Below are positions 3,276-64,000 of a stretch of DNA of 64,000 nt, one piece after another. How positions within the stretch are numbered: position 1 is the first letter of the stretch; every line of letters starts with the position of its first letter. The notes under the pieces are model-generated. The model saw nothing but the letters and a program-made list of their open reading frames with translations. It was not told the origin of the DNA and searched no databases. This DNA is from Gracilaria domingensis (Eukaryota > Rhodophyta > Florideophyceae > Gracilariales > Gracilariaceae), in contig VCMS01000285.1 of assembly GCA_022539475.1 (NCBI GenBank), positions 1 through 64,000 on the forward strand, given 5' to 3'. The translations under genes were made by a program, and so were the position numbers.

Positions 3276-4860
3276 TCAGAGCCTCTAATCCCTGCAATAG
3301 AATCATCCGCGTCACGTTCATCTCAAACGATACGTACTCAAATCCGCAACTTTACAAACGCTAATCTGTCCCCCATGCATTGCAACTTTTCTCCCAGAGG
3401 TTTACATATAGAATTTTCCACGCCGAAGAAAGGCAGGTCACTGAATGAAACCATCACCGAGGCAGATCGCCTTTGAATGATGGAGGCCAAAGCATACAAA
3501 GACCTTGACATGGTTTTCCTTTCATGAAGGAATTCTTTGAAATCTGACGGGGAGCGCACGACAGGGCCCCAATCAGAACAATTTTCTCTCAGTACTCGGA
3601 CGTCGCTTTGACTAATTATAGGTGCAATCGTGGCGCATGATGTAATAAAAGTTCTATTTCGTCTCTTCGGTGGCAGATTGGAGCCTTTAAACGCTCCTCG
3701 ACAAAGTCGTGGGCAGCAATTCATAGCTCTGGAAGTGGGACTCTGAAGTTTTATCACGGCTCTTAACGGAAGAAAAACGAACACCATTGGCAGCATTTTA
3801 CGGTATCTCCACAACACGTCGATTAATATCTTCTTGTGTATTGTTGGTGACAGGCCTTGTTAACGGGAGGTAGAGCGATACGATTTCAACATTGGAACTA
3901 TTGTCATGTGGTACCAGCTCAAGCACGCCGGGCTGAAGGATTTTCATGCCTACCATCTGTTTTGCTTTCCGCTACGACTCTCGTCGCCCCCTTGTTTCAT
4001 ACACTTTTGTAATGAATGAATGTAGCACATACGAGCTGCTACAGCCCCCGTTCTCTAATCCTGTGAGACTCATGTAGTAGTTAGCCTATCAGAACTCCAT
4101 ATAGTTATTTATAGTATTCCGTAGAGAGCTCTCTTACCCCTATAAATACGGTATTCTATGGTCGTTGCCGGCCTCCATCGTTGTTTGCCAGACCGTCACA
4201 ACGAACGAATTAAATTCAGATATATACATTGAACGCCAGAGCGAGAGCGCTCATGCTATTAGGTAATACCTTACCTTCATCATCAAAACCGATGATCGAT
4301 AGAATTTGTATCTTCACCGGAAAAAATGGTGGCCAGTATTTACGTAGCTACATACTGCCGTCACTCTGTGTCTCTGTATTTCAACCCGGCGCATTACCGC
4401 TTTCGTGCGTGCGGGTGTTGACGGGCTTCCATGGTACGTCTCTTCGCCGCTTTCAGCAGTTTAAACAGTGTAGTCTGTCAATAACTACACAAATTGTACC
4501 AAGGTCGCGTATTGTGTTAATAGTTGAGGATCAATTGGATGCAAAAATTAGTTGATTCTTCTCTGATAGATTTATACTGAGCTCGCAACAAATTATTTGC
4601 GAGAAATGCAGCCGATTGTGTTTCGGGAGGTGTGGGAACGCTACAACATGCCTCAAAATGTTTCTGTTGGAGAGGGGTTTTAGTGACGTAGACTTATGCG
4701 AGCAATCGTAGCGCTCTCCAGTCGTGCGTTTTGAAGCGCTCCTAATACTCAAGATACACCCTGATGAACGTACAGCTTTCTGCCCTCCCGCCAATCCACG
4801 TGGACAGCGGCGCAACGTGTTGGCGGGCGGGGGCATCGTACTGAGTGCGGGAAGTGTCGA
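3276..4860. other. Non-coding or decayed transposon DNA
   Basis: Both strands hold only short frames. The plus strand from 3300 to about 3830 reads as coding-like segments broken by several stops, consistent with the decayed 3' part of the transposase at 1625-3275. Nothing specific is seen from 3850 to 4860. Confidence 0.4.
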
Positions 4861-5360: not shown

Positions 5361-7200
5361 GACAGAATGACATTATGACATGTCTGACGATGTCCTTCTG
5401 CAACAACCTGTCCGGCCATCTTCGATGCAAGTGGATCTGCAACACGTGCTCTGGATGGGTGAAGCAGTACGGCCGTCTTCTTTTCCAAAAACGGAAAGAA
5501 CCGTTGCAAATCCAGATTAGGCGTGTAAGTCTTCAACATCTTTTGACCATTCAGGTGAACTATTCACCCGTATCGGCAACACTCAGGATTTCCTTGACTG
5601 TAGATCTTTGAAAGAAGATAGACTGCAGGCGAATGTCTGCCGTGACTAAATGCGGCGTTGTTGCGAACTGCAGAGCTTTATGCCAGTCTCTTGGTCTTCA
5701 ACTCGCGGTCGACGGCATGGCTGACGCAAACTATGCGGGGTAAGGGTTCACCCATGTATGAAGTACCCTTCATACACCCCCCCCGCTCTGCGGAGCAAGG
5801 AGCACATTGATATTAATGACTTCGCCAATATAATGAGACGTCTCGAACTTTTCGAGCTGGAAGACCGCTCATCGTCAGCAACAGAGTGAATCCATCGCGC
5901 CAGTCAGCTCCCCTGCCTACTCTCACTCTATCTCGCTGTATCAATACCTGTTATGCATCTTCCATTCACAAGTTCTATCATAAACATCCAAGTTTACTAT
6001 CCACGAAAATATTCACACAAGTCTTTGAAACCTCGGCTCCGAAACGCCACAAACGCAAATCGCTGGTGTGCAATCCCCCTGCACACATCTATCCTTACAA
6101 TATACAATAGTCAGCTATACAAATCCTATCCTTATACACCGTCCCATATACGCGTTCACAGTTCTTTGCTTCCCTAAGTCTGTTGTCTGTCCGAACACGT
6201 TCAGGATTGCGAACAAATGCCCCCTACCCCAAGCGCACTTGTCGTACTCCCAGTCTTCAAGCCTTCGGGTGTATGCTCATCATCTGACCCCCACAACGGA
6301 CCGCCATAAAAGCCTGTGCATCAGAGCGATTTCATTATTGACCTCCACGAACCTGACACAGATTATCGACCGCTGCACCTGACCGCAGCTATTCTCTTAT
6401 GCTTGAAAAGCTTCAACTATTACTGGTTCGGAAGGGATTTCGCAAAGGGTTTCAGCAATGGAGGTTTCACCACTTCGCAGTTATGCCTTATATGTCAAGA
6501 TTCATATGCAGCGCCAGTAAGTGAAGCCTCGATGTAGTACTCCTGTTCTCACATGCAAACTTCTGACGGATCATAGAAGCGTAGAATGCCACCCAGTCGC
6601 ACCGCGCCAAATCAGAGCTATCCGGTGGTCATCATATGATCGCAATGCTCCTTCCAGAGAAGCGCAATCCATTCAGAACCCGGCACGCTCAGACCCCAGA
6701 ACGAGTTTAGACAGAAAGAACATCTCGTGACACAATTAGAACTTTCGGTCGCGACAATACTCTTCATCCCCTCAAGTCGTGGCCCTGAATACCTTCCAAT
6801 CTCGAATACTACATCTCTCACATCATAGGAAACATAGCGGTCAAGTCGGTGAATTGATTCCAGGTTGGAATCAAGCTCTCCGTTGTTCCCAGATTCTGCA
6901 ATACCACCCGGTAGCACATACTGTTGTTGCAATCTTGATGCAGGTACCTGCGACATCAGCGATAGGTCAACGTTGTCCCACTCATTCGTGAGCTATAAAA
7001 CGGCAACTCACAAGCAGTCGTACGCCGCAACAGTGTGCAATTCCCAGATCGACTGTGTACTTCCATTGTACCAAAAGAACTCATACTGGCGGCTGCGAAG
7101 CTCCAGTGCAGTTGGATACAATCGACTTCCATGCTACCGGTAATCCTTTGCCAAGATTCGAAAGAACACATATGGGATCGAGTTCAACGCCATCAGCAGG
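5361..7200. other. Intergenic region without a supported gene
   Basis: Only short overlapping frames on both strands. A small hairpin (GTATGAAG/CTTCATAC) lies at 5756-5775. On the minus strand, frames at 6618-6956 and 7081-7296 look mildly coding and lie just downstream of the telobox gene's stop. They could be a missed 3' exon of that gene or decayed sequence; I cannot decide. Confidence 0.35.
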
Positions 7201-13710: not shown

Positions 13711-15771
13711 TTATTCGAACTTTAGAAGTTTCCGCTCATCAACATACACACGATCTTCGTATGGAACTCTCACCATTCGTCCCACATCACCACGCTTTTC
13801 TATGCGAAATGCCCATCCCTGCAACAACCACAAACCATGGTCCTTATCAATGACACTGCAGAATTCCACATACCGTTCCGCGTTCTTCATGTCAAATGGC
13901 TCGGTGAAGATGATTGTGCCATACTTTCGAGCTGGGCAAAAGCTGGAGTTTACATCTGAGAGCCAGAACAGAAACGTCTTTTCGTATGTGCACGCCACTT
14001 TTATCTCTTCCACGCGCACACCGAGTGCCTGGGCCATTTGAATATCGTCTGTCACTTCGGTGAACCCGCTGAGCCAATCCAGTGTTGATGTAAGTGTTCC
14101 ATTTATGATGTAAACAATAGCCAGAACCAACCCAGCTACAAGCGACATCACCTGAGCACCATCAAATACGATTTCCAACCAGTTGTCTCTCTTTGCAAAG
14201 TTAAACACCACACTTACGACTCCCAGGACAAGGATAGCTGCCGCGAGCAAACGTCCACTGAGACCCCGTATTCCTTTTCGCTTCACTAACACACGGCCAG
14301 GTTTGTTGAGTACAGCATCCACGGTTTTAGGCTTGTACGAACAAGCTTCGAACCTGCTTGGGCGAACATCAACAGATGGTGGTGCAGCGTCCACAGAACC
14401 ATTTTCGTCAGGCTTTGAAGCTTTTTGCCATATAATCCACCAATACCAAGGGCGAGCGGGTACCTGACGGGAGTAACCTTGCACGGTACCATGCAAAAGC
14501 TTCTCATATGATTCGTATCGAACTGAAAGATCATTGGGTCGCCGCCACGGCCCTATGTGATCGACATAGAAAAGCACATCACCACGAGCATTTGTAGCGA
14601 CACGATTTACGAAATCCTGGTCCCGAGCGACAAAATCCGCAAGCGTCTGCCGTAAAAAGTCTTCTCTATTAATTGAAGTCCACTTCCCATACTGATGAAC
14701 ACTCTTAGTTTCATTCTGCATTTGGAGCCAGTCTTGTTCGCTTAGAAAGCACACGGCTTCTCCCATATCGCTTGAAGTTGTCAAGTTGAACTCAATGCGT
14801 CTGTGCTCATCCTCTGACGCTGGCGTACCTGCAATTGATTTAGCCAAAGACAATGTGGTAGAGGTCGGCGCGCTATAGCAGATTTTGCTATCAGCTGCTC
14901 GAAAGGCTATGCCAATCTCTGCCACGACATGGCACATGTCGATTTTGGACAGAGTATAGAAAGCTTGTAGGTCGAAATGGTGGTGGCCGCGTGCCTGTCT
15001 TACGCTCTGCAGGTATGAAAGACGAAAGTAGTGCATCAATTTCCATCGAATACCAGGATTGACGTGCTTGCTTTGAGAGGCTCGTAACAAGTGAATCATG
15101 ATGACGTCGATGATACACGTGAATATCATTTTTGTTAGCCTGTGGCCATCTCCAGTGCCAACAGGAAGATCTTGGTCAAGAACGCACGGGACGCCAGTTA
15201 TGGAGGTGATGAGAATATCGATCGTCTGTAGAGCAGATCGTGAAGACTGGGTTATAACGTCATGGATGACATCGGATACTGCTCCAAGCAAGTTAGGAGC
15301 AGAAGGATTAAACTCGAGACGCGATTGAGATGAGTATATCCACTGCACCAAACGGGGTATGCCCGAGTTGAAAACTTGATTGCTGCTCAGAAACTGCAAT
15401 GCCTTGCGTACAGCGAGGTAGAAGCAGAAAACCCTCTTGCGCCCAAAGCTATCGCTTTCTATCGGTTCCGTCGGCTCTGTATGGGAAGGGGTTCCCAGAG
15501 TTAAGGTTGAATGATAGAGCACTCGATAAGTGCGTGTGTTGTCATCATGATACTTGAAGCGGCCGCGCAAAATGGTGTCAGCAATGACTTCTTTGAGCGA
15601 GTCAGACCACTTGGTGTCCGTAGAATGGCCGATCAGAAACGTCTCAAGATTGTCAACGAGATAAGATTTGAACTCCTCCTCCTCCTGCAGCAGACCCGAT
15701 GCGTTTGACGGCACGATGTAGGGTAATTGTTGAGGCGCCCGTGGGGATATTGGGTCTCCCAACGACGCCAT
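13711..15771 (-). CDS. Hypothetical protein with two C-terminal membrane segments
   Basis: The protein has 686 residues from an ATG at 15771. The first 500 residues are soluble and mixed alpha/beta in look, with no recognised motif. Two hydrophobic helices follow at about 508-526 (LLAAAILVLGVVSVVFNFA) and 541-559 (VMSLVAGLVLAIVYIINGT), then a 125-residue charged C-terminal domain. There is no N-terminal signal peptide, so it is probably a tail-proximal hairpin membrane protein with both large domains on one side. A repeated ACGTCG tract lies about 50 bp before the start. I do not recognise the family. Confidence 0.6.
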   Translation of the reverse strand: MASLGDPISPRAPQQLPYIVPSNASGLLQEEEEFKSYLVDNLETFLIGHSTDTKWSDSLKEVIADTILRGRFKYHDDNTRTYRVLYHSTLTLGTPSHTEPTEPIESDSFGRKRVFCFYLAVRKALQFLSSNQVFNSGIPRLVQWIYSSQSRLEFNPSAPNLLGAVSDVIHDVITQSSRSALQTIDILITSITGVPCVLDQDLPVGTGDGHRLTKMIFTCIIDVIMIHLLRASQSKHVNPGIRWKLMHYFRLSYLQSVRQARGHHHFDLQAFYTLSKIDMCHVVAEIGIAFRAADSKICYSAPTSTTLSLAKSIAGTPASEDEHRRIEFNLTTSSDMGEAVCFLSEQDWLQMQNETKSVHQYGKWTSINREDFLRQTLADFVARDQDFVNRVATNARGDVLFYVDHIGPWRRPNDLSVRYESYEKLLHGTVQGYSRQVPARPWYWWIIWQKASKPDENGSVDAAPPSVDVRPSRFEACSYKPKTVDAVLNKPGRVLVKRKGIRGLSGRLLAAAILVLGVVSVVFNFAKRDNWLEIVFDGAQVMSLVAGLVLAIVYIINGTLTSTLDWLSGFTEVTDDIQMAQALGVRVEEIKVACTYEKTFLFWLSDVNSSFCPARKYGTIIFTEPFDMKNAERYVEFCSVIDKDHGLWLLQGWAFRIEKRGDVGRMVRVPYEDRVYVDERKLLKFE

Positions 15772-58249: not shown

Positions 58250-60833
58250 ACAAGCACAATCACTATATTATAGCTCGCCGAAACAACGGTAGCTCTACAA
58301 GACCAAATGGTGACGTTTCGGTCCTCTGGCCACGTGTGTCTACTGTGCCACGTGAGACGCTCAAGCAAAGGCATGGCAAGGACTAATTAGTTTATTTTCG
58401 TTAATTTAGAATTAATATTTACTAGGTAGTGTAGATATGTGACCGGGGTGGTGCACCACAAATGCACCTCCCGGTGGCCCACGTGGCACTAGGTCCGTGA
58501 GAGCCGGAGGGGCGCTCAGGTGTACTCAACCCCCGAGACGCCAACCTCCCACACCAAATTGTAGTGCAACGCGATTGCGGGACTCCTTCGCTGATGCGAT
58601 TCATAACATGCACAGCGATGCCGGGAGATGGTGACACACAGTATGAGTAACTGGTGAGATCAGCCCATTCTTGGGTATACTTCATATTAGGATTAGTGTT
58701 ATGAGGCGCACGGCTTAGCCGGTGGGTCACACACGTGTGGGAAGTTTGCACCCATTAGTTGGGGTATTTTAGATGTTTATTCTAGATATTTTCGCTACAC
58801 CGCTTGACAGTAGGTTGGCACTCTACACTACTTAGTAGGTTGAGCTGCACCCATTGTCAGGGAAGTAAACGGACCAACCGAGTGTTCGGCTCTGATGTTT
58901 CACCCTTGGTGACCGATATCCTCCTCCCGGAGAGTCGACACCTTGTGCAGGGTTCATCATCCGCCTCGCGGCATCATTAACACCACTACCGCTTTCGCGT
59001 GTTTACTTTGTGTGTGTTTTCTTTATTTCGGTCCCTGTTATACAGGTAGCACTACTTGGTGTACCGGTGCATACCGTTCGTGGCTCGACACACTCGCGTG
59101 GGTTACTACCGCTCTCGCGTGTCATCGCCACACTCGTGGGTACCGTGTGCTACACACGTGACGCTACTGCCGACTTGTGTCGTGTGCTCTCTACCGCTGG
59201 ACGCGTCTCCTTCGCCGCTTCGCTCCCTCCATTACTTGGGAAGGGTCGACCCCGGTCTTACACCCGGCATTGCCGTGTCGTACCTGTGGGAGCGCTCTAC
59301 TGCTGTGCTCGCCTCTTGAGAAAGGGTCTGAACCGCTTTTGCGTGTCTTTCCCCATCGCTGGGTTTTGCACAACACAAATGGTAAAAGCAAGCACCAACT
59401 AGGCTAATTCGACACCAGTTCGGTTCTACAGTCACCAATTGGTAAGTCTAGTAGTCCTCTAATAGTTTTGCTGACCTCGAGGGTTAAACGTGTTTGCTGC
59501 ACACCAGTGCAGACGTATGTACCACTTGGTCACCGTGCAATATAGACAACTGCGGGTGCTGCCGACCTATTAGGTGTCACGCGTTTCACTCCTCCGCAGG
59601 GTCGAGCCCACGCAGGGCTCCCTACAAGCAGCTCGCACCGATCTGTTTTACCACAAATTTTGGTCTCCCGACTTAGACTTTGTGAATTACCAAGTGGTTT
59701 TGGAAAGGGAGGATTTGGAAGTCACGAGATACCTGAGTGGTTTGGTTCTCGTTGCTGAAGCAATTTACGTCGACACCAGTTATTTAAATGGAGAAACGAG
59801 GCGTGCGTCACCCGAAAAAGGCGCCGAGCGCTCCACCAAGTGACCACTCCGTACGAGGTTCAGTGTCCTATCCGGTGTTGGATAACCCGGAGGACCTGAT
59901 TCGGAAGGAACGCCCACCGAGGGGAAAGAAGGTAGATCGAGAGGCTGGGGGCTTCTCGTGTAGTGCAATGACCCCGGGAACTCCAGCCTCGCTCGTGCTG
60001 CTAATCGCAGATGTGCCGGTATGCCGGAATGGTGCCTCAGATGGTGGGGATAGGGTAGCCTTTCGTGGGAGAATGTTTATTTGTTGGCCTGGTTGTGGGC
60101 ACATCAGGTGTCCACGTGGTGGATATTGCCGCTTTCGCGGATTGCCCCTTTGAGCCGACGGGGCACGGTACACGTGTGTGGCTGTGGCCGGATGTGTGCC
60201 GGGATATTTGTTTGATTAGATACTGTAGTGATCCCTACTTAAGGGCCGGCCGACTGGCCATCCTTCTGGGAAGTAAAGTCAACCGAGTGTTCGGCTCTAA
60301 GTCTATCGCCCGCACGCGACCGCGACTCTTCGGAGAGCGTCCGTGTCGAATACGGCAGTGCTTATCCGCCTCGCGTCTCTGAGGAGCCACCGTTTACATA
60401 CGGACATTGTCGTTTATTTTGGTGTCTTGTTTTGTTCTTGTTTTTCCCGTTCTTACGGCTGTTCTCCGCCCGGTTATCAGGTTATTATTTCTTTTGCTTT
60501 GTTTCTCCTTTTCTTTTCCCTTCTATTACAGGGCCTGTGTCCGTATACACGGCTCTTTTCCTTCGTTTGCCCCTACATTTGCCCGCACTGCTGTCTCGGA
60601 TCTTCCACATCTGTGGCTGGTCTTTCCCCCCGACCTCCGTCTGTAAGTCAGGAACGGGTCGCCCGGAGTTACGCCCGGCACGTGTCGACCCCATCGGAGG
60701 GCTCTTCCGCTGCGCCACCCCTCACAGGGAGCAAGGCTGAACTCCTTGAGTGCTTCCGCGTATGCGGCTGGTTTTTGTCCGTTCGCGTCACGGTTTTGCA
60801 CTACACCTCGACCCTTTCCTGGGCTGACCAAGT

Positions 60834-62321
60834 GGACGGAGAAGCAAGCTCCGCAACGGAGGAGCCCGCTCCTGTAACAACCCCAGTGGTAGACCAAATA
60901 GATGTGCCAGTCGGGCCGCGACTGGACCTGGACGAGGTCACCCGAGTGGTAGTTGAGCGAGCCTCCCAGGAGGTCCTCGACAAGGTACCCGTGGTGGTGT
61001 TACAGTACCTAGAGAACGAGGTACGAGGACACATTGACCGATTGGTTATGCTGGCTCTGCAGAGGCAGGGGGCCAAGCTTCAACCTGAGATGGTAGCCCA
61101 GGCCGCCTTCATGAAGCATGCTTCCTTGCCAGCTGTAGATCCACGAAACCACTTGGTACTCTCCATCCTACCCTTCGTACACAACCGATTGGTGAAGGAT
61201 TTATCGACCGCATGGGGAAAGAAGCAGAGCCTCCGGGCATGGAGGGCCCGAGGTACGTATACCTCCCTCAACCCACTGGTGTAGCTCCGTCAGGACCACG
61301 TGGTGGAGACCCTGATGGAGATTCGTCGAGCTCAGGAGACGAGCGTCGACGTAAACCAAATGGTGAGAAGAAGAAAACCAAAAGGGGAAAGAGAAAGAGT
61401 CGCCGGTCGGACTCGGACTCTTCGTCCTCAGACACCGATTCGGATTCGTCAGGAGACGACCGTAAAGGTTCACGACGCAAGAGGAAGGACTCTGGCCAGA
61501 AGAAAGGAAAGAATGCCCGCAAGGGTAAGACCGAAAGATACAATGATTCGGACTCAACTTCCGACGAAGAGACTGACCTAGAGGTGCTTACACCGCTCAA
61601 CAATTTATTCACCAAAGCGGTTGACTATCGTACCTATAGATTGGAGAACAGACAGGCTGAGTATACCAAAGAGGTAGCTCAGAAGATAATGAAGCATCAT
61701 AGGAAGCTTCGTTTCCAACTGGGTGAGACTCGCTTTAGCGGGGATGACCCTATTGCTATCATTGATTTCCTTCAAAGGTTCAAGATCGCTTGTGACCAGA
61801 ATGGGTTTTCAGAGGCAGCTGCCATGTGGTTGTTTCAATTCTAGCTAACTGGTCAAGCTGGAGCGTTGCTCCATAGCCGCCTCCAAGCGAACACCATGGC
61901 GGTGGACGAAGACCAAACGGAAATGTTGACGACATACCCACAGGTAGTCAACTTCATACTGGAAACCTATGCAACCGATGAGGGTATTCAGGAGGCGTAC
62001 GCAGAGGTGCTTGCGTACCGTCAGCGCGCGGGACCAACCGAATTGGAATTCGCTCGCTCCCTATGGGCATTAGCCTCCAGCTGTGGAAGCGTCTTTACTA
62101 CCAAAAGGTTGAAATCGATGTACGCCGACAACGTGGCGAAGTCTATCCAATTACAGGTTCGCAACTACCTAGCTACCAACCGCACGGTCGACTACAACGC
62201 ACTAGCCCGCCATGCACAGGGACTAGGCGACACCGTTCGGTCAGGGGCAGGAAAGACTCCGCACCACTTGGCAAACCATCGAAGGAGAAAGGAAAAACCA
62301 GGCGGTCAGTGTTTGACGTAG
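60834..62321 (+). pseudogene. gag-like region of the retroelement
   Basis: A first frame (to 61284) encodes an acidic N-terminus and a helical stretch (RVVVERASQEVLDKVP). A shifted frame (61212-62321) carries a long Lys/Arg/Ser/Asp tract (KKKTKRGKRKSRR...DSDSSSS). It then has the capsid-type block FSGDDPIAIIDFLQRFKIAC, typical of Ty3 gag. This frame is cut by one in-frame TAG at 61842-61844 but continues sensibly afterwards (LTGQAGALLHSRL). Lesions: a frameshift near 61212-61284 and the nonsense codon. Confidence 0.65.
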
Positions 62322-62902
62322 AGGAAGAGGAGACCACTACGGATGAGGCATCCACACAATATGCCTCCCACGGTCACCCAGTCCACTTGGTGCACGCACA
62401 ACCGACAACTCGATCGCACGGTAACATCTCCTGGTCCAGCTCGCTATCCAGCGAGCCCCCCTCGAGGCAAACCTCAGCTCCCCCATCACAGGTATCCGTA
62501 CCGGTCAGCCCGGTTCTAGCGGTGCCATTCAACCAATATGGTGATAGAGGACCACCCCCGCAACAACGGAGTGCAGTACCCACGGGAGGTCGTCCCCAAT
62601 CGCGCGCGTCGTCGCTCGCGATGAAGGACCCCACCACCGGTAATCTCCTCTGTTGGTTCTGTTTGTCGCCTCATCACTTGGAAACAGCGTGCCCAAACGT
62701 GGCTCCACAGAACAGGAACGCTCTCCTCACTGCTCGCCAGCAGAACCACCAGGATATATTTGGGCCCACGGCGCGGAGCGCAGACAGGGGACACGCAAAT
62801 GCGCGACCCAACGCAGCCACACCTCATCAGGTACACATCATTACGGAGCAGGACCAAACGGATCCCGCCCCGCAGGCGGAAAACGCCGAACAGTTGGGAT
62901 AG
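62280..62902 (+). pseudogene. Nucleocapsid-like region with CCHC zinc knuckle
   Basis: After a shift near 62280 a new frame carries a Ser/Pro/Gln-rich linker and the knuckle CWFCLSPHHLETAC, a correct C-x2-C-x4-H-x4-C arrangement (62653-62694). The frame ends at 62902. Confidence 0.7.
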
Positions 62903-62943
62903 AGGCCTTCCCCAAATGTCCGGAGACGGAAGGCCTTCCAGAA

Positions 62944-63778
62944 CCAAGTGGTGCAAGTATGGACAATTACTCATTGGTTACAGGGGAGGAGAGCCTCATG
63001 GACTACACCAAACCGACATGCTTTCTCAAGCATAGTAACTATAAGGTAAACGTCACCCTCGTGTTTACTTCCAACCACCTGGTACGATGCGCCACTGTCC
63101 TGGACACCGAGGCAGGATCTAATCTGGTGAATGCCAAACTACTAACTAACAGACAACTTAACAAGCTTCAGCCATGTACATTAACTAACCCACTGGTTGA
63201 CGCCAACAACAGACCACTAACCGTCATGGAGCGCTTACCCTAATGGTATTGATTGACACCATGAAGGTCCGAGTTCGCTTCATAGTCGTAACCAACTGGC
63301 AACAGACTGTATCCTCGGAACAACCTTTTTAGACCAGCACGTCAGGGCAATTTTCCCACGCTCTAAGACAGTTCTGTTCCATAATGGACCCCGGATCGCC
63401 ATTATTGGTAACCACAAGGGTGCCTCTCCAAGAGAGAACCGCACCCGACACCAACCGGTACCAGAAAATACACTCTCCAACAAGGTGCGACTGGCGAAGG
63501 CGGTAACAATACCGCCTATGAACCACTTGGTAGTGAAGGTGACATGCCAACAACCAGGCCTGTTATCTATTCAGAACCATTCACGGTTGGCCGAACGACA
63601 TATGACCTTAATGGCGAATGGTATAGTCGACAACATACCGACGAAACCGTTTGAGGTCTACCTGAATAACTTCAGCAACCGCCCGGTCAAGCTGCCAAAG
63701 CACACCGTAATTGGTCTTGCCCTACCGGCTCCCCGTACGATCTTACGATCACACCACAATGGTCGCACGAGGTCGTGA
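62944..63778 (+). pseudogene. Retropepsin and linker of Ty3-type pol
   Basis: One frame to 63243 contains the protease active-site block TVLDTEAGSNLV, where the usual catalytic D-T/S-G triad reads D-T-E, so it is probably inactive. After a further shift the flap and C-terminal part follow (RFIVVTNW; ILGTTFLDQHVRAIFPRS). A linker with IPPMNHLVVKV and VYLNNFSNRPVKLPKHTVIG is a recognisable feature between protease and reverse transcriptase in Ty3/gypsy elements. The active-site change and the shifts mark a dead copy. Confidence 0.7.
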
Positions 63779-63788
63779 ACGCTAAGAA

Positions 63789-63840
63789 GGGGGGGGGGGG
63801 GGCAGTGCCAATTCGTCAAATTCGTCGAATTCGTCGCGGA
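63789..63840. repeat. G14 homopolymer followed by AATTCGTC repeats
   Basis: Fourteen G residues at 63789-63802, then three imperfect copies of AATTCGTC, between the protease linker and the expected reverse transcriptase. The G run may be of uncertain length in the assembly and could create an apparent frameshift. Confidence 0.8.
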
Positions 63841-64000
63841 CAGACCATATGGTGCAGCGACTAGCTGAGCGAGAAGACCAGAAACTGAAGCTCGACCCAG
63901 TGACCAATTGGAGACGGAGTGAATATAGGACTTGAAGGGGAAAGCTCAGAGCTCGGATCCTCGGACTCTTGGAGCCATTCAGTACCATGTGGTCTGTAAG

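Follow-up and report, generated by a model that had tools for sequence, protein, structure and literature searches.

Why does a Ty3/gypsy retrotransposon of the red alga Gracilaria domingensis carry one short palindrome again and again, within its coding sequence as well as its long terminal repeats (LTRs)? The question arises at the end of the window, by which we mean the whole 64,000-nucleotide stretch analysed (contig VCMS01000285.1, here C285, positions 1 to 64,000), where an earlier note had described a 10-bp palindrome as massively over-represented across 58478–63993. Judged from alignments, this stretch is a decayed Ty3/gypsy copy starting at about position 58263, and its family encodes an additional gene antisense to gag and pol. 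The observation appears to lead to more than a single over-represented motif: motif and antisense gene vary together among related families, which show five motif types. We propose that a DNA-binding protein, encoded by the element's own antisense gene, recognises the motif. That the antisense protein reads the motif seems quite likely; for the explanation as a whole, in which this protein would bind copies of its own family as a dimer and keep them active, we estimate a probability of about 0.6.

Palindromic sites in the window copy and in a younger copy

Counts were made for the core CCANNTGG, the full 10-bp palindrome ACCANNTGGT and two reversed patterns, the reversed core TGGNNCCA and the reversed 10-base pattern TGGTNNACCA, and the core and full palindrome in the window were compared with dinucleotide shuffles (100 for the core). 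The core occurs 34 times in the whole window (shuffle mean 15.0, largest shuffle 27) and the full palindrome 13 times (shuffle mean 0.7, largest 3). Twenty cores lie within 58478–63993 and one just outside, at 58303; eleven full palindromes lie in the same interval, with one at 58302 and one at 15606. The over-representation reported earlier is thereby confirmed, as is the count of eleven full sites. Among the 19 core starts listed, 18 are correct; 63533 should read 63523, and a site at 61715 had been overlooked. The earlier note had not noticed the motif elsewhere in the window; in positions 1–58262 the core stands at chance level (13 versus 13.0 in shuffles). Genome-wide, ACCANNTGGT is found at 4164 places, versus 1620 for the backwards control pattern.

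The window copy belongs to the same family, F1, as a younger copy on the minus strand at C4:147824–159208, with pieces 88–93% identical. It continues along C285 beyond the window (segment L005) and comprises the following parts.

58263–58563, plus strand: first piece of the LTR (89% in blastn against the two C4 LTRs), with CCANNTGG at 58303 and 58479 and one ACCANNTGGT
58564–59372: 809 bp without a C4 counterpart, splitting the LTR (probable insertion), motif-free
59373–59655, plus strand: second piece of the LTR, with CCANNTGG at 59435 and 59522, both full ACCANNTGGT
59656–59952, plus strand: leader and first gag codons, the gag start mapping to 59788; the CCANNTGG at 59690 is a ACCANNTGGT
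59953–60805: 853 bp without a C4 counterpart, splitting gag (probable insertion), with one CCANNTGG at 60112 and no ACCANNTGGT
60806–62899, plus strand: remaining gag remnant, frames broken (tblastn with C4 gag; pieces 60808–61140, 61140–62297 and 62249–62899)
62653–63995, plus strand: N-terminal part of the pol remnant, frames broken (tblastn)
60828–63992: 15 CCANNTGG in the gag-pol remnant, 8 of them full ACCANNTGGT, at 60828, 61149, 61296, 61356, 61715, 61822, 62264, 62383, 62944, 63075, 63292, 63523, 63845, 63904 and 63985
C285:64045–67126: continuation of pol beyond the window (tblastn)
About C285:67487–68990, minus strand: decayed antisense gene beyond pol (tblastn)

The two stretches without a C4 counterpart look like later insertions. 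Together they span 1,662 bp and contain 0 and 1 core sites, whereas 20 of the 21 sites fall in the 4,076 bp alignable with the younger copy. The odd site, 60112, lies inside one of these stretches and so probably does not belong to the element. One short tandem array was found in the window copy (61353–61396, 22 bp, 2.1 copies), and it contains a single site.

The C4 copy has LTRs that align over 576 bp with a single mismatch, a gag of 755 aa and a pol of 1516 aa with domains in Ty3 order (RVT_1, RT_RNaseH, Integrase_H2C2, rve); its two LTRs and its succession of reverse transcriptase (RT), RNase H and integrase identify it as a Ty3/gypsy LTR retrotransposon. The integrase end is chromodomain-like (PF00385, E 5.8e-5, 23.4 bits, just below the cut-off of 25.1), and a zinc-knuckle-like stretch is visible in the gag translation. 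In the genome searched (77.9 Mb, 680 contigs), its pol has at least 33 matches, many of them open, with some copies yielding two. The copy sits inside a LINE-like open reading frame (ORF; L006:4542–7949, equal to C4:144542–147949) with endonuclease and reverse transcriptase domains.

This copy contains 50 CCANNTGG. In an unbiased scan covering all 4+4 dyads with gaps of 0–6 and counting one LTR, ACCANNTGGT was top-scoring, with 50 strand-counts (25 places) versus an expectation of 1.0 derived from 228 kb of other sequence; segments L008 and L017, which contain Ty3 pieces, stood in this background and were later removed from it. Because the reading frames of the window copy are broken, codon-preserving shuffles were applied to the younger one. 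The observed number of ACCANNTGGT was reached by 0 of 1000 shuffles in gag (4 versus 0.14), in pol (10 versus 2.1) and in the second part of the antisense gene (3 versus 0.05), with no excess in the first part (1 versus 0.45, 447 of 1000). Sites occupy all three frames of gag, and likewise of pol. The codon-preserving check suggested in the earlier note thus shows motif density above shuffles in gag and pol, and with the use of all frames it upholds the view that codon or peptide constraint is insufficient. The reversed pattern TGGTNNACCA is not enriched in the C4 copy (gag 1, pol 0). Core sites are densest in the LTR, at 10.4 per kb, followed by pol and gag (4.0–4.5), the antisense gene (2.2) and a background of 208 kb (0.25). 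No regular spacing, such as nucleosome phasing would give, is seen among them (gap coefficient of variation 0.94 over 50 sites).

Motif types and the antisense gene in related families

The additional gene of the younger copy lies between pol and the 3' LTR.

C4:148955–151780, opposite to gag-pol and convergent with pol: antisense open frame of 941 codons, 908 counted from the first ATG

A 592-aa part of its product has at least 80 matches in the genome, many of them open, some copies again giving two. Between two F1 copies the antisense gene has a dN/dS of 0.09–0.18 over three pieces, where pol has 0.10, and the value between L032 and L033 is 0.15. Since these ratios are like that of pol, the gene is conserved as a protein.

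Integrase matches in the genome split into several families. Six 6-kb pieces were examined, as were eight 4.5-kb pieces around antisense-gene homologues, and 21 CCX-N(k)-X'GG patterns were compared with dinucleotide shuffles. Every one of the 14 antisense-gene segments, two of which are halves of the window copy, was marked for at least one pattern, and five motif types emerged; none of the five controls was marked, namely four Ty3 loci and the rest of the window. Observed and shuffled counts were as follows.

CCA-N2-TGG, F1: C4 copy 39/3.6; window copy 16/1.4; L005 10/1.9; diverged L025 13/1.9
CCG-N4-CGG, F4: F4 33/2.4; relative L031 19/1.9
CCG-N2-CGG, F5: L029 26/5.9; L036 34/3.2; L037 14/2.6; L034 10/0.9
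CCA-N1-TGG: L032 10/1.6; L033 13/1.3; L038 12/1.3
CCC-N3-GGG and CCC-N4-GGG, L035: 14/3.0 and 15/3.0

Palindromes are therefore similar among the members of a clade and differ from one clade to the next, with a half-site of CC[A/G/C] and a spacer of 1–4 bases. Neighbouring spacers were also marked (CCG-N3-CGG in L028, L031 and L037; CCA-N3-TGG in L025), as was CCG-N2-CGG in the F1 copy on C4 (14/3.7). The four Ty3 loci (L026, L027, L030 and L017) showed no antisense homologue in the examined pieces, and none of the 21 patterns was marked in them.

Two further tests gave a similar picture. The top palindrome had the CC..GG form in 13 of 13 antisense-gene segments, each above the best of 200 shuffles, the closest to the shuffle maximum being L033 (15 versus 14.1) and L032 (10 versus 8.5); that of F1 was scored as ACC-N4-GGT. 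In three Ty3 pieces without an antisense homologue, the top palindrome did not exceed the shuffle best. Under codon-preserving shuffling, seven pol segments from other antisense-gene families were matched by 0–7 of 1000 shuffles, and four of seven antisense segments by 0 of 1000, the others being L029 (129), L033 (84) and L032 (760). All 12 such tests in three families without the gene were not significant (lowest 128 of 1000).

The antisense protein sequences follow the motif. In an alignment whose rows are 26–51% identical to the first, a tree of nine sequences and 154 columns groups loci by motif and places F1 beside the CCG-N2-CGG group with support 0.85; L035, L037, L038 and L005 are outside this tree. 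The antisense frames of L029 and L036 are broken, and their open pieces were treated separately. Both things that the earlier note had proposed to look for, an extra element-encoded protein and its co-variation with the motif between families, were thus found.

The data sets differ slightly between analyses. L005 enters the dyad scan and the motif matrix, there up to base 5584, and not the 200-shuffle palindrome test; that test and the matrix exclude L028 bases 1–1199, L007 after 9208, the terminal Ns of L031, and L034 after 2900. The window copy in the matrix is 59953–64000, including the 853-bp stretch that is probably not element. L017 served as a background row in the palindrome test and as a control in the matrix. 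The cross-family codon shuffles cover the set without pol of L025, L034, L035 and L037 and without the antisense gene of L025, L035, L037 and L038. In L034 (C26:170001–174500), CCA-N2-CTA, CAC-N1-CTA and ACA-N0-CTA occur together, perhaps as a short repeat.

Several points weigh against reading the motif as the target of the antisense protein. The antisense-gene families compared form one pol clade, 34–55% identical across families and 24–32% identical to L026, L027 and L030 (L017 and F1 share 41% and 23% in the RT and integrase parts, respectively), so the co-occurrence of gene and motif amounts to about one evolutionary contrast; only motif switching is repeated, and the five motif types within the clade appear to be the stronger evidence. 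Control pieces were 6 kb long (L017, 10 kb), and an antisense gene beyond them would be missed. Within the antisense gene itself, sites are no higher than codon shuffles in four of nine segments. Site retention shows a modest excess, 50 of 77 over six comparisons versus about 39 at matched positions (between F1 copies 6/15, 17/20 and 7/11 versus base rates of 0.33, 0.67 and 0.59; in other families 11/15, 5/7 and 4/9 versus 0.57, 0.33 and 0.39). dS is high, up to 1.8 between F1 copies, and dN/dS was not computable for L028 versus L031. The antisense protein has no recognisable DNA-binding domain, with four weak Pfam matches over nine alignment rows (pieces from seven copies; best Prominin, E 0.009) and none at E ≤ 0.1 for two parts of the C4 protein. 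Matches of its profile to the PDB are weak only (best E 0.06), mostly to helical or coiled-coil chains and in the C-terminal half; they are compatible with a dimer, no more.

Two last points of this kind bear on a different account, which attributes the sites to chance, to base composition, to constraint on codons or peptides, or to tandem duplication. Palindromes of GCG/CGC or TAC/GTA type beat shuffles in four of six background segments (L009, L010, L012 and L017), and TGGNNCCA is mildly high in F1 pol (5 versus 2.25, 42 of 1000 codon shuffles). The former probably reflect local composition; because they too exceed shuffles, the weight is borne by the shared CC..GG form and the clade pattern. 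Dinucleotide and codon-preserving shuffles reject composition and codon or peptide constraint as a full account, reversed-arm controls and the use of three reading frames point the same way, and tandem duplication is rejected by the lack of tandem repeats in L007 and L028 and by the lone site in the array of the window copy. Taken together, this account is hardly credible.

Proposed action of the antisense protein

On the reading we favour, the antisense protein would bind as a homodimer, as suggested by the palindrome and perhaps by the helical stretch of the C-terminal half. Changes in the half-site, and in the dimer geometry that shows as the spacer, would go hand in hand with changes in the sites, which selection would have placed in coding sequence through synonymous and tolerated changes. 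The F1 protein would favour ACCANNTGGT over CCGNNNNCGG. The earlier note had offered either a dispersed protein-binding site or an RNA pairing motif. The extra protein and its co-variation with the motif argue for the former; the latter is not supported, because arms of 3–4 bp with a 1–4-base spacer make a poor hairpin.

Another product of the element, such as the Gag nucleocapsid or the integrase, might instead bind the sites, or they might serve RNA packaging, with the antisense gene a fellow traveller. The zinc-knuckle-like stretch of Gag and the fact that the motif also tracks the pol clade fit such a role, whereas symmetric palindromes fit a dimer on double-stranded DNA rather than RNA, and palindromes of this kind are missing from the four Ty3 loci whose pieces yielded no antisense homologue. 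We regard this alternative as improbable. Still less probable is that a host protein reads the sites, whether an exploited transcription factor or a silencer: CCACGTGG forms resemble plant G-box sites, but five motif types occur in related families of one genome with a largely free centre, and other DNA stays at the background density.

What antisense binding would achieve is less sure. Many sites per copy may let the protein find and coat copies of its own family and keep them transcribed despite host silencing, much as VANC proteins do for VANDAL transposons. The same protein could alternatively bind to repress, either for copy-number control or to mark copies for or against integration of new cDNA (self-nesting, safe havens). 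Repression or targeting predicts the same co-variation of motif and protein, the peak of sites in the LTR suits repression as well as activation, and the chromodomain-like integrase end makes chromatin targeting plausible. In the one case at hand, however, the C4 copy is inserted in the LINE-like ORF and not in its own family, and selection for many sites is easier to see through a gain in expression than through self-repression. A repressive or targeting role is accordingly judged unlikely.

If copies are kept active by their antisense protein, the silencing they escape would be of the histone or small-RNA type, since the search revealed no C5 DNA methyltransferase: PF00145 had no match in the genome, where intron-split genes could escape a search that was positive in 10 of 14 control genomes. 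Four Piwi matches and eight strong SET-domain matches (PF00856) are present.

The F1 LTR contains almost only CCA-N2-TGG, and gag and pol also have mixed and CCG-N2-CGG sites; gag and pol of the C4 copy contain more mixed CCANNCGG/CCGNNTGG sites and more CCGNNCGG sites than background, each LTR 0 and 1. Our guess is that the F1 motif is changing over from CCG to CCA. Mutation alone is a poor reason for such a shift, since CpG observed/expected is 0.85–1.26 in 13 sequence sets and PF00145 is unmatched; CpG deamination as its origin was rejected on these grounds.

With odds slightly better than even, these elements would form a red-algal Ty3 clade with a self-recognition code: a dimeric DNA-binding protein of a new family, encoded antisense, whose specificity has moved through half-site (CCA, CCG, CCC) and spacer (1, 2, 3–4), with sites rewritten element-wide, coding sequence included, in a host without a detectable C5 DNA methyltransferase. 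F1 would then be this code caught in mid-change. If true, element-encoded, sequence-specific self-recognition would have arisen once more besides VANC, apparently independently and in a retrotransposon, and arms races with silencing could take this form outside DNA methylation, in a genome seemingly without it. The elements also show that gag and pol can accommodate a dispersed DNA signal. The related families offer a natural series of protein–motif pairs, in which a protein–DNA code and its evolution are directly testable.

Known systems and the host genome

The closest parallel in working is VANC, the anti-silencing protein of Arabidopsis VANDAL (Mutator-like) transposons, for which PMC5735166 and PMC10398659 describe a family-specific short motif that has accumulated in the element's own copies and differs between related families together with the protein. 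The red-algal elements resemble VANDAL in having an extra element-encoded protein, for which binding is predicted here, and a family-specific motif that differs between related families. As described in PMC5735166, VANC carries DUF1985/DUF287 and recognises motifs that form tandem repeats, all in one orientation, in non-coding DNA; the red-algal sites are instead dispersed palindromes, also in gag and pol. Moreover, VANDAL is a DNA transposon and the red-algal element a Ty3/gypsy retrotransposon, and VANC acts on DNA methylation whereas this genome lacks a PF00145 match. The analogy with VANC drawn in the earlier note thus appears to hold in working, as a family-specific motif co-varying with an extra protein, and fails in descent, with an unrelated protein and sites that are dispersed and also coding. 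DUF1985, DUF287, TRP28 (PF04195) and Zn2Cys6 are not among the four families matched at E ≤ 1 by the nine antisense rows.

In position and orientation, the long antisense ORF matches that of plant Retand elements, a non-chromovirus lineage with an antisense ORF between pol and the 3' LTR that encodes a TRP28 domain, of unknown function and with predicted DNA binding, according to the covered parts of PMC11963269. Those parts mention no family-specific palindromes, and they give the function of antisense genes in plant LTR retrotransposons as unknown (PMC11963269); the red-algal gene probably comes with a readable target. The absence of a TRP28 match sets its product apart from that of Retand.

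Two further systems are comparable. TnpA of En/Spm (CACTA) binds a short motif that is repeated many times in the element encoding it, a DNA transposon with subterminal sites; in the red-algal retrotransposon the sites extend over the entire element. In fungal zinc-cluster factors such as Leu3 (CCG-N4-CGG), the half-sites are triplets and the spacer varies from one family member to another; no Zn2Cys6 match was found in the antisense protein, and this likeness is one of logic rather than of descent. With the F4 protein as the only query, no relatives were found in plasmids or viral contigs. In titles and the beginnings of abstracts of the papers listed, with few subscription journals covered, we found neither a retrotransposon antisense protein with family-specific dispersed palindromes nor the antisense gene of red-algal Ty3 elements.

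Two observations concern the host genome more generally. Ten of 12 PF00502 matches, marking phycobiliprotein genes, lie on contig C680. Beyond the strong SET-domain matches, at least 142 weaker ones exceed the family cut-off (150 of 311 candidates scored); frame sizes of 253, 304 and 1055 aa recur among many of them, and a high-copy mobile element of the alga may therefore encode a SET-domain protein.

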